Assembly (NCBI RefSeq): GCF_003952525.1
Contig: NZ_CP034451.1
Location: forward strand, 3,038,001 to 3,102,000
Length of the DNA stretch: 64,000 nt
Origin: Mesorhizobium sp. M3A.F.Ca.ET.080.04.2.1
GTDB taxonomy: Bacteria > Pseudomonadota > Alphaproteobacteria > Rhizobiales > Rhizobiaceae
Reading direction: 5' to 3'
Part shown: piece after piece, positions 40,073 to 59,462 of the stretch
Numbering within the stretch: the first letter of the stretch is position 1
How the letters are laid out: each line of letters begins with the position of its first letter
The notes under the pieces: model-generated
Told to the model about the DNA's origin: nothing
The model's input: the letters and a program-made list of their open reading frames with translations, nothing else
Databases searched by the model: none
Made by a program: the position numbers and the translations under genes

Positions 40073-42145
40073 ATGAATGAGAAATTTTCGGCGTCGGCGG
40101 GAAGTGTCGTTGCCGGCGTCGACGTCGGCGGCACCTTTACCGATCTGCTTTTGATCGACGGCAAGGCGGGCGGGAAGGTGCATATCGCCAAGACGCCGAC
40201 CACGGTGGAAAATCAGGCCTTTGGCGTGGTCTCGGCGCTGGCCGCCACCGGTTTCCCGGTCGATGGCATCGACCTCATCGTGCACGGCACGACGACCACC
40301 ACCAATGCCGTGCTGGAGCGCCGGCTGGCGCGGACCGGCATGATCACCACGCGCGGCTTTCGCGACGTGATCGAGCTTGGCCGGCGCACGAGGCCGCAAG
40401 CCTATGGCATGACCGGCATCTTCGTGCCGGTCATCCCACGCGATCTGCGGCTCGAAGTGTCGGAGCGGGTCGAAGCCTCGGGCGCCGTGCGTGTGCCGCT
40501 CGACGAAACGCAGATGCGCGAGGCGGTGAAGCGGCTTCTAGACGCCGGCTGCGAATCGCTCGTCATCCATTTCCTGCATTCCTACGCCAATCCCGCGCAT
40601 GAGCGGCGGGCAGCCGAGATCGCGGCAGAGCTTTGGCCGAATAGTCACATCACCAGCGGCCATGAACTGCTGTCGGAAGCACGCGAGTTCGAGCGCGGCG
40701 TGACCGCCGCGGTCAACGCCTCGGTGCAGCCGATCCTGGAACGCTATGTCGAGCGGCTGCGCGCGGAATTGGCCTCCAAGGGCTATGCCCGCGACTTCCT
40801 GATCATGAACGGCAATGGCGGCATGATTTCGGCCCGTTTCGTCACCCGGGAATCGGCGAAGACGGTGATGTCCGGTCCGGCTTCCGGCGTGATTGCCGCT
40901 GCCTACACCGGCAAGCGCGCCGGTTTCGGCAATCTCGTCACCTACGACATGGGCGGCACGTCGACCGACGTGGCACTGATCCGCAACGCCGAACCGGCCG
41001 TGTCGAACGAGATCGAGATCGAGTATGCGATGCCGATCCACGTGCCGATGGTGGCGGTGCACACAGTCGGCGCCGGCGGCGGTTCGATTGCGCGCGTCGA
41101 TGCGGCCGGGCTGATCCAGATCGGCCCGGAAAGCGCGGGCGCCAATCCCGGGCCGAACTGCTACGGACGCGGCGGCATGGAACCGACGATCACCGACGCC
41201 AACCTGGTGCTCGGCCGGCTGGCGCCGAACAAGCTGTTGGCCGTCGACAATCCGGTGACCGTCGAAAGCGTGACTGCAATCTTCGCGGACAGGATCGGCA
41301 AGCCCACCGGCCTCTCCGGCGTCGAGGCGGCGGGCGCCGTGCTGAGGCTCGGCAACATGAAGATGGCTGGCGCCATCCGCATGGTTTCGGTGTCGCGCGG
41401 CCACGACCCGCGCGATTTCGCGCTGTTCGCCTTCGGCGGCGCCGGCCCTCTGCATGCGACGGCGCTCGCACGCGAGCTTGGTCTGCCACGAGTGCTGGTG
41501 CCGGCCCGGCCCGGCATCACCAACGCGCTCGGCTGCGTCGTCGCCGACCTGCGCCACGACTTCGTCAACACGGTCAACCAGCCGGTGGGCAGTCTCGACG
41601 AAGCAAAGCTTCGCGAATTGTTGGAACGGCACCGGTACGAAGGCGAGGCGCTGATCGCCAAGGAAGCGGTGAAGCCGGATGCGATCCGCGTGACGCACTC
41701 CGCCGACATGCAGTTCGTCGGCCAGACCCACATCATCAACGTGCCGCTGCCGTCGTCGTCGGTGACGCGGACGACACTGCAGCAGCTGTTCGAGAAGGCC
41801 TATTTCGCGCGCTTCAAGGTCGAACTGCCGGAAATCCGCGCCAACCTCGTCAATCTCAACACCTCGGTCACCGGCGTGCGGCCGCAGGTCGACCTGTCGC
41901 GGCTGATCGACCCGGCGGGGCGCGCGGCAACGCTTGACGAGGCAAGGCGAGAGATCAGGCCGGTCTGGTATCACGGCGCCTGGCGCGAAACACCGGTCTA
42001 TGCCCGCGAACAGCTGCCGCTCGACGCCGTCATCGAGGGGCCGGCGATCCTCGAGCAGATGGATGCCACCACGGTGCTCGAACCCGGCGACCGGGCGCGC
42101 TCGGACGCCGACGGCAACATCGTCATCGACATCGGCGAGGCCTGA
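40073..42145 (+). CDS. hyuA: Hydantoinase/oxoprolinase family, A subunit
   Basis: The 690-residue protein has the Hydantoinase_A N-terminal part (VVAGVDVGGTFTDLLLIDG near residue 12, HGTTTTTNAVLERR near 65) and the ATPase core (TYDMGGTSTDVALIR near 295, HTVGAGGGSIARVDAAG near 330, FAFGGAGPLHATALARELG near 450). The C-terminal domain has the typical EGPAILEQMDATTVLEPGD ending. With its B partner it uses ATP to open cyclic amides such as N-methylhydantoin or 5-oxoproline, or acts in ketone carboxylation. Near a 6-hydroxynicotinate-reductase-like gene, opening of a six-membered lactam is an appealing role. hyuB follows after three bases. Confidence 0.9.
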   Translation: MNEKFSASAGSVVAGVDVGGTFTDLLLIDGKAGGKVHIAKTPTTVENQAFGVVSALAATGFPVDGIDLIVHGTTTTTNAVLERRLARTGMITTRGFRDVIELGRRTRPQAYGMTGIFVPVIPRDLRLEVSERVEASGAVRVPLDETQMREAVKRLLDAGCESLVIHFLHSYANPAHERRAAEIAAELWPNSHITSGHELLSEAREFERGVTAAVNASVQPILERYVERLRAELASKGYARDFLIMNGNGGMISARFVTRESAKTVMSGPASGVIAAAYTGKRAGFGNLVTYDMGGTSTDVALIRNAEPAVSNEIEIEYAMPIHVPMVAVHTVGAGGGSIARVDAAGLIQIGPESAGANPGPNCYGRGGMEPTITDANLVLGRLAPNKLLAVDNPVTVESVTAIFADRIGKPTGLSGVEAAGAVLRLGNMKMAGAIRMVSVSRGHDPRDFALFAFGGAGPLHATALARELGLPRVLVPARPGITNALGCVVADLRHDFVNTVNQPVGSLDEAKLRELLERHRYEGEALIAKEAVKPDAIRVTHSADMQFVGQTHIINVPLPSSSVTRTTLQQLFEKAYFARFKVELPEIRANLVNLNTSVTGVRPQVDLSRLIDPAGRAATLDEARREIRPVWYHGAWRETPVYAREQLPLDAVIEGPAILEQMDATTVLEPGDRARSDADGNIVIDIGEA

Positions 42146-42148
42146 ACA

Positions 42149-43855
42149 ATGGCCGTCGAAGCAGCAAAGCTCGACACGATCACGCTTTCGGTGCTGCAGG
42201 CGGCCCTGCAGCAGGTCTGCGACGAGATGGATTTGACGTTTTCCCGCGCCGCCTTCTCGCCGGTCATCGCCGAGGCCAATGACCGCTCCGACGGCATCTA
42301 TTCGGCCGCCGACGGCTCGCTCGTCGCGCAAGGCAGCCAGGGCTTGCCGGTGTTCGTCGGGGTCATGCAATATTCGACCAAGACGGTGATCGAGATGATC
42401 GCCGACGGTCGCTGCCTGGCGCCGGAGCCCGGCGACATCTACATCGTCAACGACCCCTATCTCGGCGGCACGCATCTGATGGACGTGCGCTTCGTCATGC
42501 CGGTCTATCGCGACGGAAAAATCTTCTGCTGGCTATCCAACACCGGTCACTGGCCGGACATCGGCGGCTCGGTGCCGGGCGGCTTCTCGGCTTCGGCCAC
42601 GGCGGTCGAGCAGGAGGGCCTGCGGCTGCCGCCGGTGAAACTGTTCAAGAAGGGCGCGCTCGATCCAGAGATCTACGCCATCATCTGCTCGAACATCCGG
42701 GTCGCGGACCAGCGCATCGGCGACATCCGCGCGCAGGCGGCGGCGCTGCTGATCGGCCAGGACAGACTCAATGAAATCCTGGATCGTTACGGCGACGAAA
42801 CCGTTATCGAGGCGATCGCGGAACTGCGCCGCCGCGCCGCCGAGCAGATGCGCGCCTCGATCGCGGTCATACCGGACGGCGTCTACCGCTCGCAGGCCTT
42901 CGTCGATTCCGACGGAGTGGTGAACGAGCCGCTGAACATCAATCTGACCGTCGAGAAGACGGGCGACACGCTGACCTTCGATTTTGCCGGTTCGTCGAGA
43001 CCCTGCGCCGGGCCGATGAACAGCGTGCTGGCGACGACCTTGTCATCCGTTTACCTCGCCATGCGCCATATCTTCCCGGAAGTGCCGATCAGCGCCGGCG
43101 CCTTCGAGCCGCTGGTCGTCAAGCGTCCGGAGGGCACTTTCCTCGACGCCAAGTATCCGCGGCCGGTGTCGGGCTGCGCGGCCGAGGTTTCGCAGCGTAT
43201 CGCGGAAGCCGTGTTCGCGGCCATGGTGCAGGCGTTGCCGGAGAAGGTGACGGCCGCGCCCGCCGGCTCCAGCGGCAACTTCGCGCTCGGCGGCAACGAC
43301 CCGGCGCGCGGGCGCGACTACGTCATGTATCAGATCTCCGGCGGCGGCTATGGCGGCAATGCCGGCCATGACGGCTTGAGCAACGGCTGCTCGACCATCG
43401 GCATTTCGAAGTCGCCGCCGGTAGAGATCATGGAGCAGGCCTTTCCGGTGCTCTACCGGCATTATGCGCTGCGCGAAGGTTCCGGCGGAGCGGGCAAGCA
43501 TCGCGGCGGTTTCGGGCTTGCCTATGAGGTGGAGATCCTGCGCGGAGAGGCGCGGGCCTCCTTCGTCATGGACCACGGCCGCTTTGGGCCGCAGGGCGCG
43601 CTCGGCGGCAGGGATGGCGCGCCGAACAGCGTGACGGTGTTCCGGGGCGGCGAAGCGCATGTGCCGCCGCATCTGTCCAAAGAACAAGACATCGCGCTCA
43701 AGGCCGGCGACCGCGTGCGCGTCGGCACGCCAGGCGGCGGCGGCTATGGCGACCCGCGGGAGCGTGATCCGAAGCTGATCGCGGAAGATGTCAGGCTTGG
43801 CTACTATACCGCCGAGCAGGTCAGGGACGAATGGGGCCTTGATCTCGAAAAGTGA
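42149..43855 (+). CDS. hyuB: Hydantoinase/oxoprolinase family, B subunit
   Basis: The 568-residue protein has the Hydantoinase_B signature: an N-terminal LQAALQQVCDEMDLTFSRAA block, IVNDPYLGGTHLMDVRFVMP near residue 110, ISGGGYGGNAGHDGLSNG near 400, REGSGGAGKHRGGFGLAYEV near 440 and the C-terminal GTPGGGGYGDPRERDP. It is the partner of HyuA and both are needed for activity in known systems. The A and B genes are three bases apart. Length and motif order are normal. Substrate is as uncertain as for HyuA. Confidence 0.9.
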   Translation: MAVEAAKLDTITLSVLQAALQQVCDEMDLTFSRAAFSPVIAEANDRSDGIYSAADGSLVAQGSQGLPVFVGVMQYSTKTVIEMIADGRCLAPEPGDIYIVNDPYLGGTHLMDVRFVMPVYRDGKIFCWLSNTGHWPDIGGSVPGGFSASATAVEQEGLRLPPVKLFKKGALDPEIYAIICSNIRVADQRIGDIRAQAAALLIGQDRLNEILDRYGDETVIEAIAELRRRAAEQMRASIAVIPDGVYRSQAFVDSDGVVNEPLNINLTVEKTGDTLTFDFAGSSRPCAGPMNSVLATTLSSVYLAMRHIFPEVPISAGAFEPLVVKRPEGTFLDAKYPRPVSGCAAEVSQRIAEAVFAAMVQALPEKVTAAPAGSSGNFALGGNDPARGRDYVMYQISGGGYGGNAGHDGLSNGCSTIGISKSPPVEIMEQAFPVLYRHYALREGSGGAGKHRGGFGLAYEVEILRGEARASFVMDHGRFGPQGALGGRDGAPNSVTVFRGGEAHVPPHLSKEQDIALKAGDRVRVGTPGGGGYGDPRERDPKLIAEDVRLGYYTAEQVRDEWGLDLEK

Positions 43856-45106: not shown

Positions 45107-45583
45107 TCACGCCAGCTTCGCCAGCAGCCTCAGGAACGTCGCGACTTCCTTGGCCGAGAGCGGCGCCAGCGTTTCCTCGGTGATGGTGCGGGCAAGCGGG
45201 ATCAGCCGCTCGATCGCCTCGCGACCCTCGGCCGTGAGATTGACCAGCAGCCGCCTCTTGTCGACCTCGTGCTTGGAGAGCTCGACCAGGCCGCGTGCCT
45301 TCAAACGGTCGATGACGCCCTTCACCGTGGCGGCATCCATGGCGATCAGCGTGCCGAGCTGGTTCTGCGAGGTCTCGCCGATGTCGTGGAGCTTGGCCAA
45401 AGCTGCGAATTGCGGTGGCGTCAGATCGGCGATGTGGGCCGCGAAGATGGCGACATGGCGCTGATGGGCCTTGCGCAGGATGAAGCCGACCTGATCCTGC
45501 AGATGATAGCCGTTCTCGTCCGGCTCTTCGGCCTCGACCAGCCGCAGCAGATTGTCCTCGCCGCTCACCGCAGTCCGTCCCAT
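45107..45583 (-). CDS. MarR-family regulator
   Basis: The 158-residue winged-helix protein has a MarR fold with DNA-recognition helix DAATVKGVIDRLKARGLVEL near residue 80 and wing HEVDKRRLLVNLTAEG. It is the last gene of the leftward FAD-Mo-FeS operon; its start overlaps the DUF1185 gene by 19 bases. NicR, which represses nicotinate genes in Pseudomonas and responds to 6-hydroxynicotinate, is also a MarR protein. That parallel supports a local repressor role for this cluster, but the ligand is not visible. Confidence 0.87.
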   Translation of the reverse strand: MGRTAVSGEDNLLRLVEAEEPDENGYHLQDQVGFILRKAHQRHVAIFAAHIADLTPPQFAALAKLHDIGETSQNQLGTLIAMDAATVKGVIDRLKARGLVELSKHEVDKRRLLVNLTAEGREAIERLIPLARTITEETLAPLSAKEVATFLRLLAKLA

Positions 45584-46149
45584 GCCTTGATGTCGCTCGC
45601 AGCCAGCCCACCCATGCGGTCATGGATACGCGGGCCGCAGGTCATGGCGAGGCAGAACAGGATCTCGTCGGCACGCGGGCCGTCGCTGATGCCGACCTCG
45701 ATCGCGTCGAAATGGCTGCGCACATAGGCGGCGTTGATGTGCCCGAGCGGCACGTCGAGCCGCGATCCGAAACCGCCGACCTTCTTCGCCGAGGGCACGA
45801 TCGCCTTGGCGTCGCCGAGCCGCTCGCGCATGGCATAGCCGCCCGGCACGTGCCACAGCGCGCCGTGCTCGAGCTCGCCGGCGGAACCGACGATGGCGCC
45901 CTTGCCGTAGCCGTCGATCTTCTTCACGTCGCCGCCCAACGCGGCGATCAGTCTGTCGGTCAAAAGCAGCCCGAGCGGCTTCAGGTCCTCCATCGCGCTC
46001 TGCAAATCCTCGACATAACGCCCGGCGAATGGATTCCTGACCACGGCAAGGGCGGCGGCGCGGCGGCGTGGCTCCTTGGCCACCGGCCCGCCGTCGTGAA
46101 AAATCTCCTCGGTCAGAACCGCGACCTTGCGGATCGGAAAGTCAGGCAT
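45565..46149 (-). CDS. DUF1185 ('amino acid synthesis') family protein
   Basis: The 194-residue protein matches the DUF1185 family by its start (PIRKVAVLTEEIFHDGG), the KEPRRRAAALAVVRNPFAG block near residue 25 and the C-terminal GPRADEILFCLAMTCGPRIHDRMGG. No biochemical function is established for the family to my knowledge. No signal peptide or membrane span. It overlaps the UPF0280 gene by 8 bases and the MarR gene by 19, so it belongs to the same operon and probably acts in the same degradation pathway, perhaps on a ring-opened intermediate. Confidence 0.8.
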   Translation of the reverse strand: MPDFPIRKVAVLTEEIFHDGGPVAKEPRRRAAALAVVRNPFAGRYVEDLQSAMEDLKPLGLLLTDRLIAALGGDVKKIDGYGKGAIVGSAGELEHGALWHVPGGYAMRERLGDAKAIVPSAKKVGGFGSRLDVPLGHINAAYVRSHFDAIEVGISDGPRADEILFCLAMTCGPRIHDRMGGLAASDIKAWDGLR

Positions 46150-47023
46150 GAGCAGTTTCCTTCACCTTATGCTTGTTGGGCGCGGCCAGCGCCACTGAGC
46201 CACTGATGCGGGATTGGCCCGCGAGAAACAGCGCCGATGCGGCAATCAAGCCGCGCCGGCGAAAATCTTCGGCGACGGCAAGGCCGTTGTCCAGCGCGCG
46301 AGTCACCTCGCGAGGCGAAAGCGCGCCGACGCCTTGCGTCACCAGTCGCTCGCCGAGATCGCTGTCGGGCACTAGATCGCATGCGCGCACGCGACGGATC
46401 GCCGGATGGCCGGGGAGGTCGACGGCGTTGGCGATTAGCGTTGCCGCCGCATCCGCCTCGGCGCCGGTCCGCGCAAGCACAGTGACGGCGTCGGCAATGC
46501 CCAGCGAGAAGGAACGGCCGCGCCAGCCACTGGTGGCAACGCCGCGCACATGATCCTCAGCGCGAACAGCGATGCGATCGGCAAGGCCGTGCCCGGTGCC
46601 GGCAATTGCCAATATCATCGACTGTGTCCGGCCGAGATGGATGGCGCTGTCGCCGCCATTGTTGACGTAAGCGCGATCGAGGCGGCGGCCGGCAAGCAGC
46701 GCGGCCAGAATTTCGTCGGCTACCGAACCGGCAACGGCTGCCATCGGCGTGATGAAGGTTTCTGCCAAGGGCACCACGGAAGCCTCCATGCGCAGCGCCG
46801 TCGGTCCGGCGAAAGCGCGCGGCCGCAAAGATGCAGGTCGGCGCAGTTCGGGGAGCTCCTCGACCAACTCGGTCAGGATCGTCTGGAAGCGGGTGACGGC
46901 CTGGCCATAGGCGGCCCTGCGCTCGTCCTCCTCGCCGAAGGCCTCGATGACTAGATCGATCGGTCCATGGTTGAGATGGAGCCGCCGGCCATCGGCGAGC
47001 CAATGCGCCTGCGGGCCGTTCAT
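46142..47023 (-). CDS. UPF0280 family protein (ApbE-like fold)
   Basis: The 293-residue protein starts at ATG 47023 in an ATGA overlap with the FeS-protein gene. Recognisable blocks are HWLADGRRLHLNHGPIDLVIEAFG at the N-terminus (the longest clean part starts RRLHLNHGP), PMAAVAGSVADEILAALL near residue 95, AYVNNGGDSAIHLGRTQS near 120 and ATSGWRGRSFSLGIADAVTV near 160. ApbE proteins transfer FMN to threonines; UPF0280 shares the NNGGD motif. It could flavinylate or assist the FeS reductase next to it. Function unknown. The longer frame upstream of 47023 lies inside the neighbouring gene and was rejected. Confidence 0.82.
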   Translation of the reverse strand: MNGPQAHWLADGRRLHLNHGPIDLVIEAFGEEDERRAAYGQAVTRFQTILTELVEELPELRRPASLRPRAFAGPTALRMEASVVPLAETFITPMAAVAGSVADEILAALLAGRRLDRAYVNNGGDSAIHLGRTQSMILAIAGTGHGLADRIAVRAEDHVRGVATSGWRGRSFSLGIADAVTVLARTGAEADAAATLIANAVDLPGHPAIRRVRACDLVPDSDLGERLVTQGVGALSPREVTRALDNGLAVAEDFRRRGLIAASALFLAGQSRISGSVALAAPNKHKVKETAHA

Positions 47024-48564
47024 TGCCCGGCCTCGCTGGCCCGGGCGCGGCGCAGTTGCGCCAGCGGCGGCCAGGGATTGCCGGCCGGCGCGCCGGCACC
47101 ACGGCGCGGGTTGAGGTATTCGCCGCCTCTGGCAAGAATGTCCTCGACGCTGCGGATCTCGCTCTCGTAGCCGCCAAGCCTGACATAATCGTCGCGGCGC
47201 ATGGTGAACTCGATCGGCGCCACCAGCGCCGGCGTCGGCACGTAACCGAAGGCGCCTTCCGGCACGCGAGTGACGTCGACCATCAGCGTGATGCCGCCGC
47301 CCGGCCAGACATAGACCGGCGCGCCGCCGACCGTGACATAGGTCTTCAGGCCCTGCACCGAGCGGGTCAGGTTGACGGGGTTCTCGGTGACACCGGCGCG
47401 CAGCGAGCCGCCGGCGCCGCCGATGAAGAGAACCGTGCACAGCGCCGGCTCGCAATTGTCCTCGATGAGGCCGACGGATTTCTGCAGCCGTTCGGGGAAG
47501 GGCCTTTCCACCGGTTTGAGCTGGTCGTCGAGCTCGTAATACGCGAACTGCTCGCCGGTGGTCGAAACCATGAGCAGCGACAGGCCGGGACGGGCGCCTT
47601 TCTTGGCATTCCAGTCGCCCAGGATCGACAGCGGATCGGAAATCGTGGTGCCGCCCCAGCCGAGGCCTGGCTCGGAGACCTTGAAGTAGCGGCCGGGCGT
47701 CGAGCGGCGGCCGATGATTTTTATCCCCGTATCCTGCCAGCCCAACACCTTGCCGGCCTGGTGCTCGGAGACGACCCCGGTGATGTGGTCATCGACCACC
47801 ACCACCTCGTCGACCAGCCCGCGCCATTGCGTGGCGAACATGCCGATGGTGGCCGAGCCGCAGCCGACGCGCATGCGGTGCTCGACCTTGCCGTCGATGA
47901 CCGGCGCCTTGCCCGCCTCGACAACGACCGTCGCGCCGCCGTCGATGGTGAGCTCGACCGGCTTCCTGTTGCACAGATTGAGCATTGCATCGCAGGTGGC
48001 GCGGCCCTCGGCTTTCGAGCCGCCGGTCAGGTGATGGACGCCGCCCAGCGACAGCATTTGCGAACCGTATTCGCCGGTGGTGACATGGCCGATCGCCTCG
48101 CCCTCGGAACGCACGGTTGCCGTCTCGTCGCCAATGTGGCGGTCGGTATCGATCTTCACCTTGACGCCGCAGTAGGAGAAGATGCCTTCGGTCACGACCG
48201 TGACGAGATCGACGCCTTCGACCTCCTGGCTGACGATGAAGGGCGCCGGCTTATAGTCCGGATAGGTGGTGCCGGCGCCTATTGCGGTGACGAAGCGGCG
48301 GCCGGTGTTGACCAATTCGCCATTCCAGGCTTCGCCCTCGGCAACGAAAGGCACGACCGCGCCGCCGGTCTCGGCCGCATGATCGAGAATGGTCAGCGGA
48401 TCCATGCGCACGATGCGGCCGCCGACATTGCCGTAACGGTCGCAGGCGCCGGTGCGGCCGTCGGCGATGTAGCACATGACCGGGCAGGCGTCGCAGCGGA
48501 TCTTTTCCGCCACCTGCTTCTCGCCGGGATCGTGGGTTTCGAAACGTTCGGCAAGCTCGCTCAT
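47020..48564 (-). CDS. 6-hydroxynicotinate reductase-like iron-sulfur protein
   Basis: The 514-residue protein has an N-terminal Cys cluster, Cys24, Cys27, Cys31 and Cys41 (RCDACPVMCYI then TGACDRYGN), suited to a [4Fe-4S] centre. Glycine-rich domains follow (MRVGCGSATIGMFATQW near 240, GLGWGGTTISDPLSILGDW near 310, LFIGGAGGSLRAGVTENPV near 400). This is the family annotated as 6-hydroxynicotinate reductase, which in Eubacterium barkeri makes 1,4,5,6-tetrahydro-6-oxonicotinate with reduced ferredoxin. Here it is coupled by ATGA overlaps to a molybdenum hydroxylase and to UPF0280. The exact substrate in this aerobe-type genome is not proven. Confidence 0.83.
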   Translation of the reverse strand: MSELAERFETHDPGEKQVAEKIRCDACPVMCYIADGRTGACDRYGNVGGRIVRMDPLTILDHAAETGGAVVPFVAEGEAWNGELVNTGRRFVTAIGAGTTYPDYKPAPFIVSQEVEGVDLVTVVTEGIFSYCGVKVKIDTDRHIGDETATVRSEGEAIGHVTTGEYGSQMLSLGGVHHLTGGSKAEGRATCDAMLNLCNRKPVELTIDGGATVVVEAGKAPVIDGKVEHRMRVGCGSATIGMFATQWRGLVDEVVVVDDHITGVVSEHQAGKVLGWQDTGIKIIGRRSTPGRYFKVSEPGLGWGGTTISDPLSILGDWNAKKGARPGLSLLMVSTTGEQFAYYELDDQLKPVERPFPERLQKSVGLIEDNCEPALCTVLFIGGAGGSLRAGVTENPVNLTRSVQGLKTYVTVGGAPVYVWPGGGITLMVDVTRVPEGAFGYVPTPALVAPIEFTMRRDDYVRLGGYESEIRSVEDILARGGEYLNPRRGAGAPAGNPWPPLAQLRRARASEAGQ

Positions 48565-51329
48565 CTGCGTGCCTCCTTTTCGCGGATCGCCGCCAGGATG
48601 CGGCTCGGCGTCGCCGGCACCTTGGTGACCAGAACGCCGGCAGCATGGCGGATGGCGTTGAGGATCGCCGGCGCCGTCGGGATCAGCACATGCTCGCCCA
48701 GGCCCTTGGCGCCGAAGGGTCCTTCCGGATCCGGAACCTCGACCAGTATGTGCTCGATCGGCGGCACGTCGCCGATGGTCGGGATGAGGTAGTCGTGCAG
48801 GTTCTCGGTGCGGCCGGGGATATATTCCTCCATCAGCGCCATGCCGATGCCTTGCGCGATGCCGCCCTCGATCTGGCCCTCGACCAGCAGCGGATTGATC
48901 GCCTTGCCGACATCGTGGGCGGCGGTGATCTTGATCAGCTTGACGATGCCCAGCTTGAGATCGACCTCGAGCTCGGCGATCTGCGCGCCATAGCCATAGA
49001 CGGCGTAGGGCTTGCCCTGGCCCTTGGCGTCGAGCGGCAATGTCGGCGGGTCGTAGGTCTCCTCAGAGACGAACACCAACCCGTCGGCATCCATCTTCAA
49101 GCTCGACAGATCGACACGCCGGGTCGCCTCGCCCTCGCGGATATTGAGGCTGGCCCCCTCGAGCGCGATCGTCGCCTGTCCGGACACATTGGCGAAGCGC
49201 AGGATCTTTTCGCGCAGCGTGCGGCCAGCCTTTTCCGCCGCCTTGCCGGTCACGAAAGTCTGGCGCGAGGCGGATGTCTTGCCGGCGTCGGGCGTGATGG
49301 CGGTGTCGGCGCTCTTCAGCCGGAATTTGTCCAGCGGCAGCCCGAGCGCGTCGGCGCAGATCTGCGCGATCACCGTGTTCGAACCCTGGCCGATATCGAC
49401 GGCGCCCTGGTGCAAAACGACGTCACCGGAAGCCGAAATGCCGACCTTGATGGTCGAGGGATTGGGCAGCGAGGTGTTGCCGCAGCCATACCAGCAGGAG
49501 GCGACGCCGACACCACGCTTGCTTGCCGTGCTGGCAGCGTTGAAGGCTTCCGATTCCGCCAGCGCGCGCTGCCAGCATGGGCGCAGCGCTTCCAGGCAAT
49601 CGCCGATGCCAACCCCGGACGCAAGGTGCTGACCGGTGACTGTTTCGGAACCGTTACGAAGGCAATTTTTCAAGCGAAAATCGAGCCGGTCCATGCCGAG
49701 CTTGTCAGCGAGTTCGTCATAGAGGGTCTCCTGCATGATCGTCGCCTGCGGCACGCCGAAACCACGGAAGGCGCCGGCGATCGGGCCGTTGGTGTGGATG
49801 GCGCGGCCTTCCGCCCGGTAGTTCGGCGTTAGATAGGGACCGGAGGCATGCACCGGCACGCGGTTGGCGACTGTCGGTCCCCAACTCGCATAGGCGCCGG
49901 TGTTGAAGTCTCCCTCGAAAATCATGCCGATGACGCGACCCTCGGCATCCGCGCCGATGGTCGCCTTCATCTCGGCAGGATGGCGCTTGGTGGTCGACAT
50001 CATCGATTCGTTGCGTGTATAGGCGAGCGCCGCCGGGCGTCCCGTCTTCATCGCCACCAGGCCGATCAGCGGCTGCAGCGATACATCGAGTTTCGAGCCG
50101 AAACCGCCGCCAGTGGCGGTCGGCACGATGCGCACGTTGTCGACAGGAAGGCCGAGCACCTTGGCGGTGTCGTCACGATCCATATAGGGTGCCTGCGTGC
50201 AGGCGACGACGACCAGCGTGTCGTCATCCATGTAAGCATAGCCGGCTTCCGGCTCGATGTAGGCGTGCTCGACAAACGAGGTCTCGATGGCGCCGGACAC
50301 GGTGACGGCGGCGGCGGCAAGCGCTGCGTCGGGGTCGCCGCGCTCGACGAAGCCCGATGTGAGCAGGTTCGCCGGCCTGTGCTGGTGGATCAGCGCCGCG
50401 CGCTCGGCTTTCGCCTCGTGGGGCTGCAGGACATGCGGCAACTCCGTCCAAGCGATCGGGAAATCGGTCAGGTCGAGATCGAGGATCGCCTCACGCTCCC
50501 CGGCGACAAGCGCCACCGCCTCGCCGCGGAAACGGGCGAAACCTTCGGCGAGGGCCGGCTGGTCGGCAAAGGGACCGATGACGCCGAAGCAGTTCTTGCC
50601 GGCAATGTCGGCGGCGGTGAAAACGCCGGCAACGCCGGTATGGGCTTTGGCCCAGGCCTTGATATCGCCGAAACTGAAGCGGGCATGGTAGTGCGGGGAG
50701 CGGACCACGAGAACGGCCAGTGCGTCGGCCGGGAAGGTGTCGCCGCCAAATTTCTCGGCGCCGGTAACCTTGGGCAGGCCGTCGAGCCGGATGAGCGAGG
50801 CGCCGACAGCGCGCCCGGCCTCGGGCAAGCGATGGTCGACGCCGTTCATATGCTGCCAGGCATCCATCACCGCCGCGACGATTTTCCTGTAGCCGGTGCA
50901 GCGGCAGAGCACGCCGCCGAGCGCGTCCTGGGTTTCGGCCTCGCTCGGCGTGGGATTGCGTTGCAGCAGCGCTGTTGCGGATACCAGCAGGCCAGGCGTG
51001 CAGATGCCGCATTGCGCGGCGCCGTGTTCGAGGAACGACGCCTGCAGCGCGGAGAGCCCGCCATTGGCGAGGCCCTCGACCGTGGTGACTGATGCACCGG
51101 ACACCGAGGCCGCCGGCACAAGGCAGGCGCAGACCGGATTGCCGTCGACCAGCACGGTGCAGGCGCCGCAATCGCCGGCGTCGCAGCCGACCTTGGTACC
51201 GGTCAGCCGCAACTCGTCGCGCAAGACCTGCGACAGCCGCCGCACAGGCGGCACAGACACGCTGACCGCAGCGCCGTTGACCTCGAAGGCAATGTCGGCA
51301 CGTTCCATGCTGGAATCGGTGAGGCTCAT
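48561..51329 (-). CDS. Fused FeS-molybdopterin hydroxylase (xanthine dehydrogenase family), possible nicotinate dehydrogenase
   Basis: The 922-residue protein joins the small [2Fe-2S] subunit to the large Mo subunit. Residues about 8-170 hold two FeS clusters (VGCDAGDCGACTVLVDG, then QCGICTPGLLVSATALL and GVLCRCTGYRKI). From about 185 comes the Mo domain with GGGFGSKLDVS, GAFRGFGVPQA, HQGAVDIGQGSNTVIAQI and the active-site Glu block GPFGAKGLGEHVLIP. The FAD subunit is separate (51326). Such enzymes hydroxylate N-heterocycles next to nitrogen. With a 6-hydroxynicotinate-reductase-like gene downstream, nicotinate to 6-hydroxynicotinate is plausible; xanthine or other purines are alternatives. 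The FeS-Mo fusion order is unusual among known nicotinate dehydrogenases. Confidence 0.87.
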   Translation of the reverse strand: MSLTDSSMERADIAFEVNGAAVSVSVPPVRRLSQVLRDELRLTGTKVGCDAGDCGACTVLVDGNPVCACLVPAASVSGASVTTVEGLANGGLSALQASFLEHGAAQCGICTPGLLVSATALLQRNPTPSEAETQDALGGVLCRCTGYRKIVAAVMDAWQHMNGVDHRLPEAGRAVGASLIRLDGLPKVTGAEKFGGDTFPADALAVLVVRSPHYHARFSFGDIKAWAKAHTGVAGVFTAADIAGKNCFGVIGPFADQPALAEGFARFRGEAVALVAGEREAILDLDLTDFPIAWTELPHVLQPHEAKAERAALIHQHRPANLLTSGFVERGDPDAALAAAAVTVSGAIETSFVEHAYIEPEAGYAYMDDDTLVVVACTQAPYMDRDDTAKVLGLPVDNVRIVPTATGGGFGSKLDVSLQPLIGLVAMKTGRPAALAYTRNESMMSTTKRHPAEMKATIGADAEGRVIGMIFEGDFNTGAYASWGPTVANRVPVHASGPYLTPNYRAEGRAIHTNGPIAGAFRGFGVPQATIMQETLYDELADKLGMDRLDFRLKNCLRNGSETVTGQHLASGVGIGDCLEALRPCWQRALAESEAFNAASTASKRGVGVASCWYGCGNTSLPNPSTIKVGISASGDVVLHQGAVDIGQGSNTVIAQICADALGLPLDKFRLKSADTAITPDAGKTSASRQTFVTGKAAEKAGRTLREKILRFANVSGQATIALEGASLNIREGEATRRVDLSSLKMDADGLVFVSEETYDPPTLPLDAKGQGKPYAVYGYGAQIAELEVDLKLGIVKLIKITAAHDVGKAINPLLVEGQIEGGIAQGIGMALMEEYIPGRTENLHDYLIPTIGDVPPIEHILVEVPDPEGPFGAKGLGEHVLIPTAPAILNAIRHAAGVLVTKVPATPSRILAAIREKEARR

Positions 51330-52186
51330 GCCGCCGCCTTGGCGCCGCCACCGACGCCGGCGGCGGCACACACAGCACGGGCCACGATCTCGCGCGCCGC
51401 GTGCTCTCGATACTCGGCGCTGCCGCGCACATCCGCAATGGGAGAGAGCTCATCGACCGGTGCGGAAAACGCCGCATCGGCGAGCGCTGGCGTGACGGCT
51501 TGGCCGCGCAGGGCCGCCTCGACGCCCTCCAGACGGCGGGCGACGGCCGAACAGGCACCCACGGCGATTGCCGCATCCGCGACCACGCCGCCCTCTGTCA
51601 CGAGCCGAGCCGCAGCCATGGCGATGGAGATGACGAGATAGCGCCGGGCGCCGAGCTTGACGAAGGAAGATGCGCCGGCGGCGGAGCGCTTCGGAATACA
51701 AATGGCGGTGACCATCTCGCCGGAGTGCAGCGCGGTGCGGCGGTTGCCGAGGATGAAGCCGTCGAGCGGCAGATGCCGTGTCTGCTGCGCCGATCGCAAC
51801 TCGACCTCGGCATCCAGCACCATCAACGCCGGCACACCATCCGCCGCGGGCGAGGCGTTGCAGAGGTTGCCGGCAACGGAGGCGACGTTCTGGATCTGGA
51901 CGGACCCCACTTCGCGGGCGGCTGCCTTCAGCGCGTCGAACGCCGGCGGCAGCGGCTGGCGCACGATATCGGTCCAAGTGGTGCGGGCGCCGATCCGCCA
52001 ATGCTCTTCGGTCTCGACGATGCCGCGCAGCGCGGCCAGTCCGTTGATGTCGAGGATGTTGTCGCGAAAAGGTTTTGCGCCCTGCGCGGGATAGAAATCC
52101 GTGCCGCCGGCGAGGATGCGCCAGCTGTCCTCGCCAAGCAAAGCGAGCGCCTCGTCGACCGTGGTGGGTTTCGCGTAACGGATCAC
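51326..52186 (-). CDS. FAD-binding subunit of the molybdenum hydroxylase
   Basis: From GTG 52186 (GGGAAGG upstream) the product is 286 residues, normal for the CoxM-type FAD subunit. FAD contacts are visible in RILAGGTDFYPAQ near residue 33 and VASVAGNLCNASPAADGVPAL near 105, followed by the CO_deh_flav_C part (SSFVKLGARRYLVISIAMAAA). It passes electrons from the FeS clusters of the 922-residue partner, with which it shares an ATGA overlap. The longer frame from 52330 runs through the promoter motif and was rejected. It is the first gene of the leftward operon. Confidence 0.9.
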   Translation of the reverse strand: MIRYAKPTTVDEALALLGEDSWRILAGGTDFYPAQGAKPFRDNILDINGLAALRGIVETEEHWRIGARTTWTDIVRQPLPPAFDALKAAAREVGSVQIQNVASVAGNLCNASPAADGVPALMVLDAEVELRSAQQTRHLPLDGFILGNRRTALHSGEMVTAICIPKRSAAGASSFVKLGARRYLVISIAMAAARLVTEGGVVADAAIAVGACSAVARRLEGVEAALRGQAVTPALADAAFSAPVDELSPIADVRGSAEYREHAAREIVARAVCAAAGVGGGAKAAA

Positions 52187-52254
52187 GCTTTGCCTTCCCA
52201 AAAAGGGGCCTTTCCGAGGGAACCTGCCGGCCTCCAGCTCGAGCAAATTCATTC

Positions 52255-52267
52255 GTATGCAAATGAT
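52255..52267. promoter_or_regulatory. GTATGCAAAT-type motif upstream of the hydroxylase operon
   Basis: GTATGCAAATGAT lies 69 bases before the FAD-subunit start. It differs at one base from the motif before hyuA (39982). The flanking ATTCATTC and ATCAAC are AT-rich compared with the surroundings, which suits a promoter or operator region. The divergent pncA gene starts 173 bases to the right. Confidence 0.5.
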
Positions 52268-52439
52268 ATCAACTTCGCCGCGATTGTCAAAGCGATGTGG
52301 GCGCAAGAACCTGTCCCGATCCAGAGCCACGGCTTTGTTATGCCTTAGAGGTTGACGCCGCCGGCCATCTGATCAAGGTTCTGCCTCCGGTCGCGTCAGC
52401 GGCATTTTGCTGGAGCCCAGCCCAACGAGAGGGAGCCCC

Positions 52440-53054
52440 ATGGCCGAGGAAGCGCTCATCGTCATCGACCTGCAGAACGACTTCTGTCCCGGCGGCGCGC
52501 TGGCGGTCGCCGGCGGCGACGAGATCGTGCCCTTAGTCAACGACCTGATCCGGCGGTCCGAGCATGTCGTGCTGACGCAGGACTGGCACCCGGCCGGCCA
52601 TTCGAGCTTCGCCTCCAGCCATCCGGGCAAGCAGCCCTTCGAGGCCGTCGAAATGCCTTACGGGCCGCAGACGCTTTGGCCGGACCATTGCATCCAGGGC
52701 AGCCTCGGTTCCGATTTCCATTCAGGCCTCGCCTGGACCAAGGCCGAGCTGGTGATCCGCAAAGGTTTTCGCACGGCAATCGACAGCTACTCGGCTTTCT
52801 TCGAGAACGATCATACGACGCCGACGGGCCTCGCCGGCTATCTTAAGGAACGGGGGATCGAGGCGGTCACTTTGGCAGGCCTTGCCACCGACTTCTGCGT
52901 TGCCTTCTCGGCGCTCGATGCGGTGAAGCAGGGCTTCAGGACGACCGTGCGGCTCGACGCCTGCCGCGGCATCGATCTCAACGGGTCGGTCAATACGATG
53001 CTCTCACGCATGCGCGATGCCGGCGTGATGCTCGAAGACCATTTGGCGGACTGA
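52440..53054 (+). CDS. pncA: Nicotinamidase
   Basis: The 204-residue isochorismatase-fold hydrolase converts nicotinamide to nicotinate and ammonia. The catalytic triad is visible: Asp10 in IVIDLQNDFCPGGAL, Lys in ELVIRKGFRTAIDSYS near residue 110 and Cys in GLATDFCVAFSALD near 155. The metal site is TQDWHPAGHSSFASSHPG near 50. ATG 52440 is used since GAGAGGGAGCCCC lies upstream. It diverges from the hydroxylase operon and could feed nicotinate either to PncB (61115) for NAD or to the degradation genes. The antiporter gene starts seven bases after the stop. Confidence 0.93.
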   Translation: MAEEALIVIDLQNDFCPGGALAVAGGDEIVPLVNDLIRRSEHVVLTQDWHPAGHSSFASSHPGKQPFEAVEMPYGPQTLWPDHCIQGSLGSDFHSGLAWTKAELVIRKGFRTAIDSYSAFFENDHTTPTGLAGYLKERGIEAVTLAGLATDFCVAFSALDAVKQGFRTTVRLDACRGIDLNGSVNTMLSRMRDAGVMLEDHLAD

Positions 53055-53061
53055 CCCGACT

Positions 53062-54748: not shown

Positions 54749-55484
54749 TTATCCAACCCCCACATATCGCCGGACTGCCGACGGATCGGCACGCAGCTCC
54801 TCGACGTCGACCGTCTCGCGGTTGCGGCCGTTCTCGATGAAGCAGACGCGGTCGGCGACCGACAGCACGGCGTCGACGCGCTGCTCGACCAGGACCGTCG
54901 AGACGCCGAGCCCGCGCAGCTTGGCCACCGTCTCGCGGATCTTGGCGATCATCGACGGCATCAGCCCTTCGGTCGGCTCGTCGAGCAGCAGCACCTGCGG
55001 CTCGAGGCAGAGCGCGCGCGCCATGGCAAGCATCTGCTGTTCGCCGCCGGACAGCGTGCCGGAACGCTGTTTCAGCCGCTCCCTGAGCAAGGGGAAGAGA
55101 TCGAGCACTTTGTCGCGCGTCGCCTTGCCCTTGCCGCGCGCCATCAACCCGATCTCGATGTTTTCCGCCACGCTCATCTCGGCGAACAGCCGCCTGCCCT
55201 GCGGCACATAGGCGACGCCGGCCTTCGGCACGTCATGCGCGGCAAGCCCGGTCAGCTCCTTGCCGTCCAGCCTGATCGAGCCGGCCGCCGCCGGCACCAG
55301 TCCCATGATCGCCTTCAGCGTCGTCGTCTTGCCGGCGCCGTTGCGGCCGAACAGGCAAAGCACCTCGCCCTTGTTGAGGACCAGGTCGAGGCCGTAAAGC
55401 ACCTGGACCTCGCCGTAGAAGCATTCGAGCCCGGATATGGAGAGCAGACCTTGGTCGACCATGAGGGGATCGACCATGAGCGGA

Positions 55485-55492
<8 letters not shown>
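54749..55492 (-). CDS. Branched-chain-amino-acid-type ABC transporter, ATPase 2 (LivF-like)
   Basis: The 247-residue ATPase has Walker A LFGRNGAGKTTTLKAI near residue 40, signature LSGGEQQMLAMARAL near 140, Walker B VLLLDEPTEGL and the LivF-type VPQGRRLFAEMSVAENIEIG block. The first ATG (55492) overlaps the LivG-like stop by 8 bases; the next two in-frame ATGs, in a repeated MVDPLMVDQ stretch, are also possible. It is the last gene of the transporter operon. The substrate follows from the binding protein and is probably not an ordinary amino acid. Confidence 0.92.
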
Positions 55493-56209
<717 letters not shown>

Positions 56210-56213
<4 letters not shown>

Positions 56214-57172
56214 GGCAACCACCCGAGCCAGCGTTGGCGAATGCTGCCCAGAATGCCCTTCGGAAAGAACAGCACAAGCAGAATGAGCGCGATGCCGACG
56301 ATCAAAAGATAGGCTGAGGTGAAGCTGCTGGCGATGTCGGTGACGTAATACATGAACAGCGTGCCGACGAGCGGCCCCAGCGCCGTCGCGGCGCCGCCGA
56401 GCAGCACCCACAGCAGCGGCAGGATCGAATATTGCACCGAGGCGAAACTCGAGCCGATATAGCCGAACAGCAGCGCATAGGCCGCGCCGGAGGCAGCGCA
56501 GATCGTGCCGGACAAGACCACGGCGGCGATCTTGTTGGCGACCGTATCGTAGCCGAGCATCTTGGTGCGCTCCTCATTCTCGCGAATGGCGACCAGCACG
56601 CGGCCGAAGCGGGAGCGGACGACGGCAAGGGAAGCGATCAGCACGAGCGAGAACAGCGCCAGCGCGCTCATGTAGCGCACGTTGGGGTTGGTGAGGTCGA
56701 GCGAGGCGCCGCCGAAGCTCAGCGTGCGCGCCGCCTGCTGGATGACCAGGCCCTGGTCGCCGCCGGTCCAGGCGGCAAAATACAGGATCAGCAGATAAAA
56801 GATCTGCGCGAACATCATGGTGACGATCATGAACGCCACTCCCGATGTGCGCAGCGCAAGCAGGCCGATGAGCAAGGCGAGCAGCGCGCCGCAGGCGATC
56901 CCGGCAATGAAGGCTTCCGGTACGCCCCAGCCGAGATGATAAACGGTCAACCCCGCTCCGTAGAGGCCGGCGGAAAAAAACATGGCGTGGCCGAGGCTGA
57001 GCAGGCCGACATAGCCGAAGAGCAGATTATAGCCCGTGGCGAAGACTGCGAGCGTCATGATGCGGGCAAAGAGACCCTGATGGTAGTCCGGCAGAATGAA
57101 ATTCAGCACGAACAGAAGCGCGATGACGCCGATATGCAGCGCATAGATTTTTGCCGGCGAAGTCTCCGTCAT
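56210..57172 (-). CDS. Branched-chain-amino-acid-type ABC transporter permease (LivM-like)
   Basis: The 320-residue inner-membrane protein has about nine hydrophobic segments and the LivM block GYVGLLSLGHAMFFSAGLYG near residue 55. The cytoplasmic loop is SRFGRVLVAIRENEERTKML near 190, followed by FGYIGSSFASVQYSILPLLWVLLGG split over two spans. ATGA overlaps join it to the LivH-like gene before and the LivG-like gene after, so the five transporter genes (with one gap before livH) are one unit. Confidence 0.92.
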
Positions 57173-58050
57173 CGCGGCGTCGTCCCGAACAACCCTTGCG
57201 GCCTGAACACCAGCACCATGGCAACCACCAGCGTGGCGATGATCTTGGCCAAAGTCGGCGAGAAGAACACCGAGATGATGCCGTCGGAGATGCCGATCAG
57301 GATGGCGGCGATCACGGTGCCGCGCAACGAGCCCAAGCCGCCGATGATGACGACGATGAAGGACAGCAGCAGCGGGTCCTGCCCCATCAGGTAATGCGCC
57401 TGGCTGATCGGCACGATCAGCACCGCGGCGGTCGCGGCAAGCATGGCGCCGATGGCGAAGACGCCGGCATAGACGCGCTCGACCGGGATGCCGAAGGCCT
57501 GCGCCGTCTCGCGATCATACTGGGTGGCGCGCATGACCAAGCCGATTTTGGTGCGGGTCAGCACCAGCCAGGTCAGGACGAGCAGCAGCGCGGAGGCGGC
57601 AACCACCGACAGCTTGTAGCCGGAATAGCCGAACCACGGCAGCAGGATGCGATAGCTGAAGGGCGGCTCGACCGGGCGCGCCTCCGGCCCGTAGAAGGTC
57701 AGCGCCAGCTGCTGGATGATGTAGAGCATGCCGATGGTGGCGACGATGGTGCCTTCAGGATTATAATTCAGCCGGCGCAGCACCAGCCGTTCGGCGATCA
57801 GCGCGACCAGCCCGACCACCAGGGGCGCGATCACGAGCGCGGCCACGAAGCCGATCGCCGGATGGCCCGCGATCATCGTCGAGATCGCCCAGGCAAGCAC
57901 CGCGCCCAGCATGAAGAACTCGCCATGTGCGACGTTGACGACGCGCATGACACCGAACACCAGCGACAGCCCAAGCGCCGTCAGCGCCAGCACGGCGGAC
58001 GTGACGAGGCCTTCGAGCGCGGCAAGGAGGAGATGGGGTCCGAAATGCAT
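57169..58050 (-). CDS. Branched-chain-amino-acid-type ABC transporter permease (LivH-like)
   Basis: The 293-residue inner-membrane protein has about eight hydrophobic segments. LivH-type blocks are SLVFGVMRVVNVAHGEFFML near residue 30, TRTKIGLVMRATQYDRETAQ near 165 and FIVVIIGGLGSLRGTVIAAI near 230. It starts ATGCATTTCGGACCC after CTCCTTGCC-complement GGCAAGGAG. A collapsed palindromic repeat lies between this gene and the binding-protein gene upstream. Confidence 0.92.
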   Translation of the reverse strand: MHFGPHLLLAALEGLVTSAVLALTALGLSLVFGVMRVVNVAHGEFFMLGAVLAWAISTMIAGHPAIGFVAALVIAPLVVGLVALIAERLVLRRLNYNPEGTIVATIGMLYIIQQLALTFYGPEARPVEPPFSYRILLPWFGYSGYKLSVVAASALLLVLTWLVLTRTKIGLVMRATQYDRETAQAFGIPVERVYAGVFAIGAMLAATAAVLIVPISQAHYLMGQDPLLLSFIVVIIGGLGSLRGTVIAAILIGISDGIISVFFSPTLAKIIATLVVAMVLVFRPQGLFGTTPR

Positions 58051-58077: not shown

Positions 58078-58124
58078 CACCCCCCTCTGCCCTGCCGGGA
58101 TGTCCGGCAGGACAGAGGGGGGTG
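58078..58124. repeat. Collapsed 47-bp palindrome of the 155-bp family
   Basis: The left arm CACCCCCCTCTGCCCTGCCG is joined almost directly to the right arm TCCGGCAGGACAGAGGGGGG, with the whole centre missing. The arms match imperfectly (CTGCCC against the complement of GGACAG). It sits between the binding-protein and LivH-like genes and would form one long hairpin in their mRNA. Confidence 0.8.
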
Positions 58125-58157
58125 GCTTGGCGCTCACGCTCGGTGAAACGTCAACGC

Positions 58158-59462
58158 TCACAGCGGCTGCGTCGTGTAATCCCCTTCCGGCTCGTAGAGG
58201 CCGTCCTCGATCTTGGTCTTGTGCACCACCTTGAGCTTGCCGCCCTCGACCTTGGAGATGTTCTGGATGCCGAAGCATTGGTGGATCTTGCCGTTGAAGG
58301 TTTTCGGACCCTGCGGATGCTCCGGTCCCTCGGCGAATTCGGTCAGCGCTTCGGTGGCCTCGACCAGCTTGGCGCGGTCTTCCGGCCCTTTGTAGCCGGC
58401 GTCCTCCATCGCCTTCTTGACGACGTAGAGCGTCTCCCAGCAGCCGAACATGTGCGAAGCGGTGGAGACGTCCTTGGGATCACCGACGGCGGCGCCGTTG
58501 TCGTCGATGCCGACGGCGGCGCGGTAGGTCTTCTGTGCGGCGGAGTCACCGGGCTGCGCATAGCGCGGCGAGCCCTCCCAGAAATGGCTGCCGTCGAGGA
58601 ACTCGAGACCGGGGCTGTTGATGTCGGTCGCCTCGAGCGAGTCCATGAAGCCGAACAGCTGCGGACGGTTCGATCCGTAGAACTCGCCGAGCTCCTTGAC
58701 GAAGGTGAGCACGGCCGGGCCGACCATGACGTGGTAGATCACCTCGGTCTCGGCCGGAATCTGCGGGAAGTATTTGGTGAAGGACGACTCCGTCGGCGGG
58801 ATGGCGATCTGCGCGATGACGTCGCCGCCTTGCGCCTTCAACGCCGGCGGCAGGTAGTCGCGATGGTCGTAGCCGAAGGCGAAGTCGGGGAATATCTGCG
58901 TTACCTTCTTGCCGGCATTGGCGGCGATCCAAGGCGCCATCGACTGGATCTGGCTCTTCACATCGGTGATGCCGGGCTGGAAGACGTAGCGATTGAGCTT
59001 GGTCGAGGCGACATGATGGCCTTCGCTGACCACGAAATAGGGGATCTTGTTCTCGCCGGCGGCGGGGGCCGAGCCGATCACGACATGCGAGAACAGCGTG
59101 CCGAAGACGATGTCGGTCTTGTGCTGGGTGGCGAACTTGGCAACCACCTCGGCGCCGCGGGCGGGATCGGTGCCGTCATCCTCGATCACCAGCTCGACCT
59201 GGCGGCCGCCTATGCCGCCGGCGTCGTTGATCGCCTTGACCGCGGCGGCGCTCGTCTTCTCGTACCAACGGCCGTAGGCGGCGCCGATGCCGGTGCGGTG
59301 CGACTGGAAGCCGATCTTGATCGGCGCCGAGCTCTGCGCCTGGCTATAGCGGACGAAGCCGGGCGCAAGCGCAAGGCCGGCGCCGGCGGCGATGCCCTTC
59401 AGCGCGGTGCGGCGGGAAAGCCTTGTCTTGGAGAGGTCGAAGAATCCGTTCTTGTCAGCCAT
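58158..59462 (-). CDS. ABC transporter substrate-binding protein (LivK-like family), Tat signal
   Basis: The 434-residue protein begins with a twin-arginine signal (KTRLSRRTALKGIAAG) and has the Peripla_BP_6 fold (IKIGFQSHRTGIGAAYGRW, AINDAGGIGGRQVELVIEDD, FGTLFSHVVIGSAPAAGENK, FVVSEGHHVASTKLNRYVF). Tat export suggests folding before export. The family binds branched-chain amino acids, amides, urea or aromatic acids. Linkage to hyuAB and the hydroxylase operon, and a shared upstream motif at 59543, suggest a cyclic amide or N-heterocyclic acid. The protein heads the leftward transporter operon. Confidence 0.88.
   Translation of the reverse strand: MADKNGFFDLSKTRLSRRTALKGIAAGAGLALAPGFVRYSQAQSSAPIKIGFQSHRTGIGAAYGRWYEKTSAAAVKAINDAGGIGGRQVELVIEDDGTDPARGAEVVAKFATQHKTDIVFGTLFSHVVIGSAPAAGENKIPYFVVSEGHHVASTKLNRYVFQPGITDVKSQIQSMAPWIAANAGKKVTQIFPDFAFGYDHRDYLPPALKAQGGDVIAQIAIPPTESSFTKYFPQIPAETEVIYHVMVGPAVLTFVKELGEFYGSNRPQLFGFMDSLEATDINSPGLEFLDGSHFWEGSPRYAQPGDSAAQKTYRAAVGIDDNGAAVGDPKDVSTASHMFGCWETLYVVKKAMEDAGYKGPEDRAKLVEATEALTEFAEGPEHPQGPKTFNGKIHQCFGIQNISKVEGGKLKVVHKTKIEDGLYEPEGDYTTQPL

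Follow-up and report, generated by a model that had tools for sequence, protein, structure and literature searches.

Degradation of nicotinate by way of ring reduction reportedly occurs in Eubacterium barkeri. Its cluster for anaerobic nicotinate fermentation, said to have been described by Alhapel in 2006, encodes a hydroxylase and then a 6-hydroxynicotinate reductase (Hnr), with an enamidase. The enamidase requires no ATP. Strain SG-6C, a related bacterium that bears a nicotinate cluster, grows on or consumes nicotinate and 6-hydroxynicotinate (6-HNA); the identity between its Hnr and that of E. barkeri is given as 42%, and nicotinate and a chlorinated relative that derives from neonicotinoid insecticides share the same intermediate (PMC3511419). 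We compared these systems with a window of 64,000 nucleotides from Mesorhizobium sp. M3A.F.Ca.ET.080.04.2.1 (positions 3038001-3102000 of the 6.17-Mb genome, on one contig; all feature coordinates below are those of the window). On its minus strand a run of six genes (45107-52186) encodes a hydroxylase FAD subunit, a fused Fe-S/molybdenum hydroxylase, Hnr, UPF0280, DUF1185 and a MarR-type regulator, with overlaps of 4, 4, 4, 8 and 19 bases between successive genes, and a hyuA-hyuB pair lies nearby. Gene content, co-occurrence, complementarity, a shared palindrome and folds were computed, and the genes of each locus were mapped by tblastn, with proteins of the window and of the loci as queries. 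Judged from sequence comparison, it is likely that this regulated unit serves the reductive catabolism of nicotinate, with lactam opening by ATP-dependent HyuAB in place of enamidase, the flavin of Hnr installed or handled by UPF0280 and 6-HNA sensed by MarR.

Searching the window genome for enamidase gave no match at E 1e-60. Hnr matches were found in 83 of 389 Alphaproteobacteria and in 27 of 299 Pseudomonadota genomes, one of which (G022), a match of 33 residues, was regarded as spurious, leaving 26 genuine cases. Without G022, this amounted to 104 distinct Hnr-positive genomes; 80 were taken for the ring-opener searches, 24 congeners having been dropped before counting. A HyuA orthologue was present in 47 of the 80 and enamidase in 35. 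Two genomes held both and none held neither, while about 21 with both and about 19 with neither would be expected if the two were independent (Fisher, 1.9e-20). HyuA orthologues were called at 828 bits or more (828.7 versus 760.3 for the next match; 55-100% identity) and enamidases at 611 bits or more (611.8 versus 354.6). At the same scores, 80 Hnr-minus Alphaproteobacteria drawn randomly out of 264 contained one HyuA orthologue (genome G498) and no enamidase. On the Hnr tree, which was made with a quick method and has SH-aLRT support only, the ring-opener labels change 11-13 times, and 6-8 of these changes are forced by starred branches. All six independent pairs on starred branches combined the gain of one ring opener with the loss of the other; the resulting p of 0.031 is the minimum that six pairs allow. 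Hnr has HyuA within 20 kb in 30 of the 47 genomes and enamidase in 23 of the 35, and several Hnr loci have hyuAB next in line in the same direction. The two ring openers also occupy the same slot. In the window and in loci L042-L044, MarR comes first, the ring opener, encoded on the other strand, second and fpr, in the direction of MarR, third; the ring opener is hyuB and hyuA, behind a PAP2 gene, in the former and enamidase, directly adjoined by an Fpr relative, in the latter. The initial annotation had proposed HyuAB as the lactam opener, and the near-perfect complementarity with enamidase, together with the shared palindrome described below, supports this.

HyuA (40073-42145, plus strand) contains the Hydant_A_N and Hydantoinase_A domains and matches PDB entries 7hk5 and 6yra_A, and HyuB (42149-43855, plus strand) contains Hydantoinase_B and was aligned to 6yra_B. 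They would form the ATP-binding and the metal-binding subunit, respectively, of a predicted ATP-dependent lactamase. The DVGGTFTD ATP motif is kept in HyuA, and HyuB keeps the CapB metal ligands Asp41/His99/Asp102/His124 in an alignment inspected by eye, so that domains and both sites place the pair in the ATP-dependent hydantoinase/oxoprolinase/caprolactamase family. An assignment as the caprolactamase CapAB itself was rejected, with equivalog scores of 506 (HyuA, CapA model) and 317 bits against a cut-off of 1000. CapAB and OplAB hydrolyse lactams with two subunits in an ATP- and metal-dependent manner (PMC8453981, PMC11033972), and the six-membered delta-valerolactam is a substrate of OplAB, an oxoprolinase pair related to HyuAB (PMC11033972). 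The predicted substrate of HyuAB in the window is 1,4,5,6-tetrahydro-6-oxonicotinate (THON). Alternatively, Hnr in HyuAB genomes might make another lactam of the same pathway, such as the fully reduced 6-oxopiperidine-3-carboxylate, which would be closed to enamidase and need HyuAB. Such a product would account for the use of ATP, delta-valerolactams are substrates of the related pair, and one DUF1185 paralogue, B, accompanies enamidase in the fetched Hnr stretches (27 of 35 enamidase genomes versus 2 of the 45 others). However, Hnr sequences of both kinds are mixed on a single tree and do not separate cleanly according to ring opener, so that a changed Hnr reaction would need many origins, and we consider this explanation unlikely. 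It is also conceivable that HyuAB belongs to the regulon and acts on another compound, for example a side product or a further lactam, while an unrecognised hydrolase opens THON. That hyuAB is frequently unlinked to Hnr (17 of 47 genomes) would agree with this, but it fails to predict the trade with enamidase, as each of the 80 genomes has at least one ring opener and only two have both. We regard it as improbable.

A 16-bp palindrome, YRTWNGYRYRCNWAYR, precedes the FAD gene of the hydroxylase in 49 of 65 loci, versus a fraction of 0.0008 in mononucleotide shuffles. In the window, one operator-like copy lies ahead of the hydroxylase-Hnr operon (52250-52265) and one between fpr and hyuA (39977-39992), and there is no further site within one mismatch anywhere in the window. 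A tighter form of the pattern, YRTTNGYAYRCNAAYR, which the site between fpr and hyuA matches, has five matches genome-wide, three of them on both strands (the window pair and position 5700387), and a reversed control pattern has three. The third perfect palindrome, at 5700387 (L236), lies about 30 bases past the 3' end of a RACo-type gene. The palindrome was found upstream of hyuA in 20 of 45 genomes, that is 8 of 30 with hyuA linked to Hnr and 12 of 15 with hyuA unlinked (at a distance of over 20 kb from Hnr, or on a separate contig). These counts comprise 45 of the 47 HyuA genomes, in which at least 250 upstream bases were at hand; G323 (not fetched) and G350 (164 bases) were left out. The lower frequency at linked hyuA fits the position of hyuAB inside the Hnr operon in several such loci. 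The palindrome is also present at 10 of 10 fpr genes (at least 75% identity), where it is identical to the hyuA site because fpr stands opposite hyuA, at 9 of 13 nicotinamidase genes, which stand opposite the FAD gene, and between enamidase and fpr in L042-L044. Upstream of UPF0280 (0/79), HyuB (0/39), DUF1185 (0/61), LivHM (0/28) and SBPb (0/27) it was not found. Among genes for relatives of the window's Liv-type binding protein (60% identity or more) with usable upstream DNA, two of seven carry it (L038, L148) and the window copy does not. Since the Hnr operon and hyuA share the palindrome, we assign them to one predicted regulon.

Several observations weigh against a replacement of enamidase by HyuAB within one regulon. 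The bit-score cuts were chosen after the data had been seen, though they were placed in wide gaps, and the consensus YRTWNGYRYRCNWAYR was written after viewing the sequences. Within the window the two one-mismatch matches are no excess over the shuffle mean of 2.67. The palindrome is lacking in 25 of 45 hyuA upstreams (22/30 linked, 3/15 unlinked) and in 14 of 18 enamidase upstreams (present in 4/18); some of these site-less hyuA and enamidase genes sit inside operons. The Hnr-minus control is weakened because many of its genomes are small, and its one positive genome, G498, carries the HyuA orthologue without a palindrome. Two genomes hold both ring openers, and hyuAB lies outside the Hnr operon in the window as well as being unlinked in the 17 genomes mentioned. 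Finally, an ATP-consuming substitute for enamidase would be energetically odd. In the two genomes with both enzymes (G122 and G170), enamidase is found in a separate cluster (L213:8256-12024; L214) with no Hnr in the fetched 20 kb.

Besides this enzyme, a divergent enamidase-like hydrolase, the L213/L214 cluster encodes both DUF1185 paralogues (A and B), an ABC transporter, a MarR, two NAD-dependent proteins of SDR/epimerase type and a hydrolase of the isochorismatase family, and perhaps serves degradation of another cyclic imide or lactam. In G498 (L212), hyuA and a MoCo hydroxylase subunit have open frames that adjoin with a slight overlap.

The first enzyme of the proposed route is a fused [2Fe-2S]/molybdopterin protein (48561-51329, minus strand; Fer2, Fer2_2, MoCoBD_1, MoCoBD_2), a predicted nicotinate 6-hydroxylase, with an FAD subunit (51326-52186, minus strand; FAD_binding_5, CO_deh_flav_C). 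The open frame of the latter extends to 52330, and its start is probably the GTG at 52186, as judged by the boundary of the FAD domain, a GGAAGG ahead of it and the place of the operator. The hydroxylase has the expected domains and lies next to Hnr; its scores fall within the xanthine dehydrogenase/aldehyde oxidoreductase range, and it passed no equivalog cut-off. The Fe-S protein encoded at 47020-48564 (minus strand) may be counted as a 6-hydroxynicotinate reductase homologue. The closest protein in the database shares 97% identity with it and bears the name '6-hydroxynicotinate reductase [Mesorhizobium loti]', it is about 60-73% identical to Hnr of loci outside its family, and Cys 24, 27, 31, 41, 132, 235 and 371 are invariant in the 159 rows with a residue there (160-row alignment). 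Pfam and NCBIfam gave no match for it. The confident part of an Hnr model had no clear match among solved structures, which is a weak test, and the fold may be undescribed. In genome G016 (L031/L033) Hnr appears to be split into two frames at residues 250/251, either by a sequencing error or as a broken gene. Next to the FAD gene lies pncA for a nicotinamidase (52407-53054, plus strand, start probably ATG 52440; NF008623, 215 bits versus 174).

The MarR-type regulator (45107-45583, minus strand; Pfam MarR; best PDB matches 2nnn, 6pcp and 6pco) was compared with BpsR, the 6-HNA-responsive MarR protein of Bordetella, whose 6-HNA ligands are given as Tyr15, His23, Arg26 and His32 (PMC6837509). 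These align to Tyr26, Phe34, Arg37 and His43, so that three of four ligands (Y26, R37, H43) are kept and Phe34 replaces His23. Among 49 aligned MarR neighbours, the window copy included, Tyr and Arg are found in 49/49 each and His43 in 37/49. The window protein thus resembles a 6-HNA sensor, and binding is predicted. BpsR differs in that it represses nic genes of another 6-HNA route (PMC6837509). The scores of the hydroxylase would suit a unit that degrades a different N-heterocycle, such as another pyridine carboxylate or a purine, and to which the nicotinate names were merely lent. This we find highly improbable in view of the adjacent nicotinamidase, the 6-HNA-type MarR pocket, Hnr loci with an Fe-S + MoCo-cytochrome c hydroxylase and the growth of the related strain on nicotinate and 6-HNA (PMC3511419). 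The hydroxylase type in the 80 Hnr loci of our G-numbered genomes was fused in 65, Fe-S + MoCo-cytochrome c in 9 and neither in 6. We take the Fe-S + MoCo-cytochrome c type to resemble P. putida NicAB. This type, together with the adjacent nicotinamidase, a nearby nicotinate phosphoribosyltransferase (NAPRTase) and the three BpsR ligands, upholds nicotinate as the substrate, as first suggested in the initial annotation.

UPF0280 (46142-47023, minus strand; NF003322, 390 bits versus a cut-off of 290) is found near Hnr in 158 of 160 loci, with 79 in either of the two sets of 80. The exceptions are L073, on a 3-kb contig, and L157, where the contig ends inside Hnr. This neighbourhood is far beyond chance. 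The first set, the G-numbered genomes, has UPF0280 in 79, DUF1185 in 58 and nicotinamidase in 15 of its 80 loci. The second consists of 80 loci from Burkholderiales or related bacteria, the best 80 of 591 relatives; its bias to this order comes from the top sequence in the query alignment, which was of the same type, and it may share as many as two genomes with the first set. Of these best 80, 79 have UPF0280, 77 DUF1185, 68 enamidase, 55 Fpr, 31 nicotinamidase and none window-type HyuA (tblastn maps), loci on short contigs being included among those without a given gene. UPF0280 occurred in 26 of 299 genomes, precisely those with a genuine Hnr, and in the locus maps it follows Hnr in the same direction, with MarR between them in L047.

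The fold of UPF0280 is that of ApbE flavin transferases, and no Pfam match was obtained. Ser165 and Asp191, kept in 79/79, were aligned with the catalytic Ser and Asp of ApbE; these triad residues would be placed on the TSG and ADAxxT motifs. The names of the triad residues, including His257, follow PMC12052999. UPF0280 is without the HxxDPxTG stretch, which would hold the catalytic His257, and has an invariant GRS instead, and for lack of this motif we rejected filing it as ApbE. PF02424 ApbE itself was absent from the window genome and from 14 of 28 tested Hnr-positive genomes. On the side of Hnr, the canonical D-x-x-[ST]-G-A-[ST] motif was not found at the conserved DDHITGV site. Residue 266, within D-[HQ]-I-T-[GA]-V-x-[ST], is Ser in 60 and Thr in 100 rows of the 160-row alignment. 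The E. barkeri reductase reportedly carries a covalent flavin. Our best reading is that UPF0280, as an ApbE-like protein dedicated to Hnr, would attach or handle the flavin of this enzyme. With a probability only a little short of even, UPF0280 is instead no flavin transferase and serves as an FAD-binding chaperone, an FAD pyrophosphatase or a structural partner of Hnr. The missing HxxDPxTG stretch and the missing flavinylation-type motif of Hnr speak for this, whereas the fully kept Ser and Asp and the genomes without PF02424 ApbE, given the covalent flavin reported for the E. barkeri enzyme, speak against it. More tentatively, and with some doubt, we propose jointly that UPF0280 represents a flavin transferase of a new type, with the ApbE fold but lacking the catalytic His, which covalently flavinylates cytoplasmic Hnr possibly at Ser/Thr266, and that enamidase, along with its DUF1185-B partner, was displaced several times by an ATP-driven HyuAB lactamase. 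No paper under the name UPF0280 was found in the literature searched.

DUF1185 comprises two deeply separated paralogues on the tree, A and B. The window copy (DUF1185/AA_synth, 45565-46149, minus strand; PF06684, 237 bits versus a gathering score of 27; PDB 3byq and 2qtp) belongs to A, which occurs in 47 of 80 fetched Hnr stretches with either ring opener. From its distribution given above, B looks tied to the enamidase route. The two B copies in HyuA-type genomes (L143:12215, L186:12278) sit on very long branches, as would fit decay or a change of function once the switch had occurred. DUF1185 might act after ring opening, for example in decarboxylation of 2-formylglutarate, which is a guess. 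Such a decarboxylation step in Azorhizobium was reportedly described by Kitts in 1992. The idea that UPF0280 and DUF1185 are new components holds in part: as neighbours they are not wholly new, since the published cluster has two conserved genes of unknown function, and neither name was found in the portion of that report used (PMC3511419).

For the pathway as a whole we infer every substrate, the reactions and operator binding. The Liv-type transporter would import the substrate and PncA would deamidate nicotinamide to supply nicotinate, which the Mo/Fe-S/FAD hydroxylase would convert to 6-HNA. Hnr, as an Fe-S flavoprotein whose flavin UPF0280 would attach or handle, would reduce 6-HNA to THON, probably with electrons delivered via the nearby candidate ferredoxin reductase. 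HyuAB and ATP would then open the THON lactam to 2-(aminomethylidene)glutarate/2-formylglutarate and ammonium, a task that enamidase, an unrelated hydrolase, would perform in relatives. DUF1185-A may act after ring opening, which is the least certain step, and MarR would sense 6-HNA and bind both palindromes, before the operon and between hyuA and fpr.

All genes named in the initial annotation, including the hydroxylase with its FAD subunit, Hnr, UPF0280, DUF1185, MarR, hyuA-hyuB and the Liv transporter, are present at their coordinates. The contents of the range proposed there (40073-59462) are real, but the unit reaches further, to fpr and the NAPRTase gene. Similarly, the six genes do form an overlapped operon, but hyuAB, described as flanking it, is on the opposite strand with a PAP2 gene between and hence lies outside this operon. 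Third codon positions are G+C-rich, as expected, in five of the six operon genes; UPF0280 is missing from this list, probably because its listed frame extends far upstream of the real start. The Fpr-like ferredoxin-NADP(+) reductase gene fpr (39025-39894, minus strand) is divergent from hyuA, and its product scores 136 bits with NF008178, under the cut-off of 390. Further genes on the minus strand encode a LivF-type ATPase (54749-55600; PF00005), a LivG-type ATPase (55485-56411; PF00005, BCA_ABC_TP_C; real start probably further inside), two Liv-type permeases (56210-57172 and 57169-58050; PF02653 each) and a Liv-type binding protein (58158-59462; PF13458) for predicted nicotinate-type uptake. 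Relatives of the latter at 60% identity or more occur in 8 of 80 Hnr loci, the window counted. PncB, the nicotinate phosphoribosyltransferase (61115-62419, minus strand; TIGR01514 and NF003704 over cut-off), is a neighbour from NAD salvage with no catabolic step; a relative (72%) adjoins the hydroxylase in L037, L039 and L040.

If our proposal is true, reductive nicotinate catabolism would have a second, unrelated and ATP-dependent ring opening, and a role could be proposed for hyuAB genes that are commonly annotated as hydantoinase or oxoprolinase. UPF0280 would gain a testable function, DUF1185 a pathway context, and the regulon a predicted operator and a proposed effector.

The E. barkeri cluster reportedly has a hydroxylase and then Hnr, as in the window, and differs by anaerobic fermentation and enamidase. 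HyuAB shares with CapAB and OplAB the two subunits, the metal ligands and the DVGGTFTD motif (PMC8453981, PMC11033972); unlike CapAB, it is far under the caprolactamase equivalog cut-offs and linked to Hnr. UPF0280 shares the fold and the counterparts of the triad Ser and Asp with the flavin transferases ApbE, Ftp and FmnB (PMC12052999), and differs from them in having neither the catalytic His motif nor a Pfam match and in occurring only with Hnr in 299 genomes. The core of the window cluster matches the published, predicted nicotinate cluster of Azorhizobium caulinodans, Bradyrhizobium and SG-6C, which likewise has hydroxylase, Hnr, transporter and two conserved genes of unknown function (PMC3511419). 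Bradyrhizobium-like loci have enamidase and an Fe-S + MoCo-cytochrome c hydroxylase, whereas the window has HyuAB and an FAD-type fused hydroxylase. We conclude that the window unit is a variant of the reductive nicotinate pathway of the Azorhizobium/E. barkeri type and not the type itself, as its genome gave no enamidase match at E 1e-60. The core pathway was known in outline; what is new is an apparent swap of the enzyme that opens the ring, and a family of helper proteins with sharp limits.

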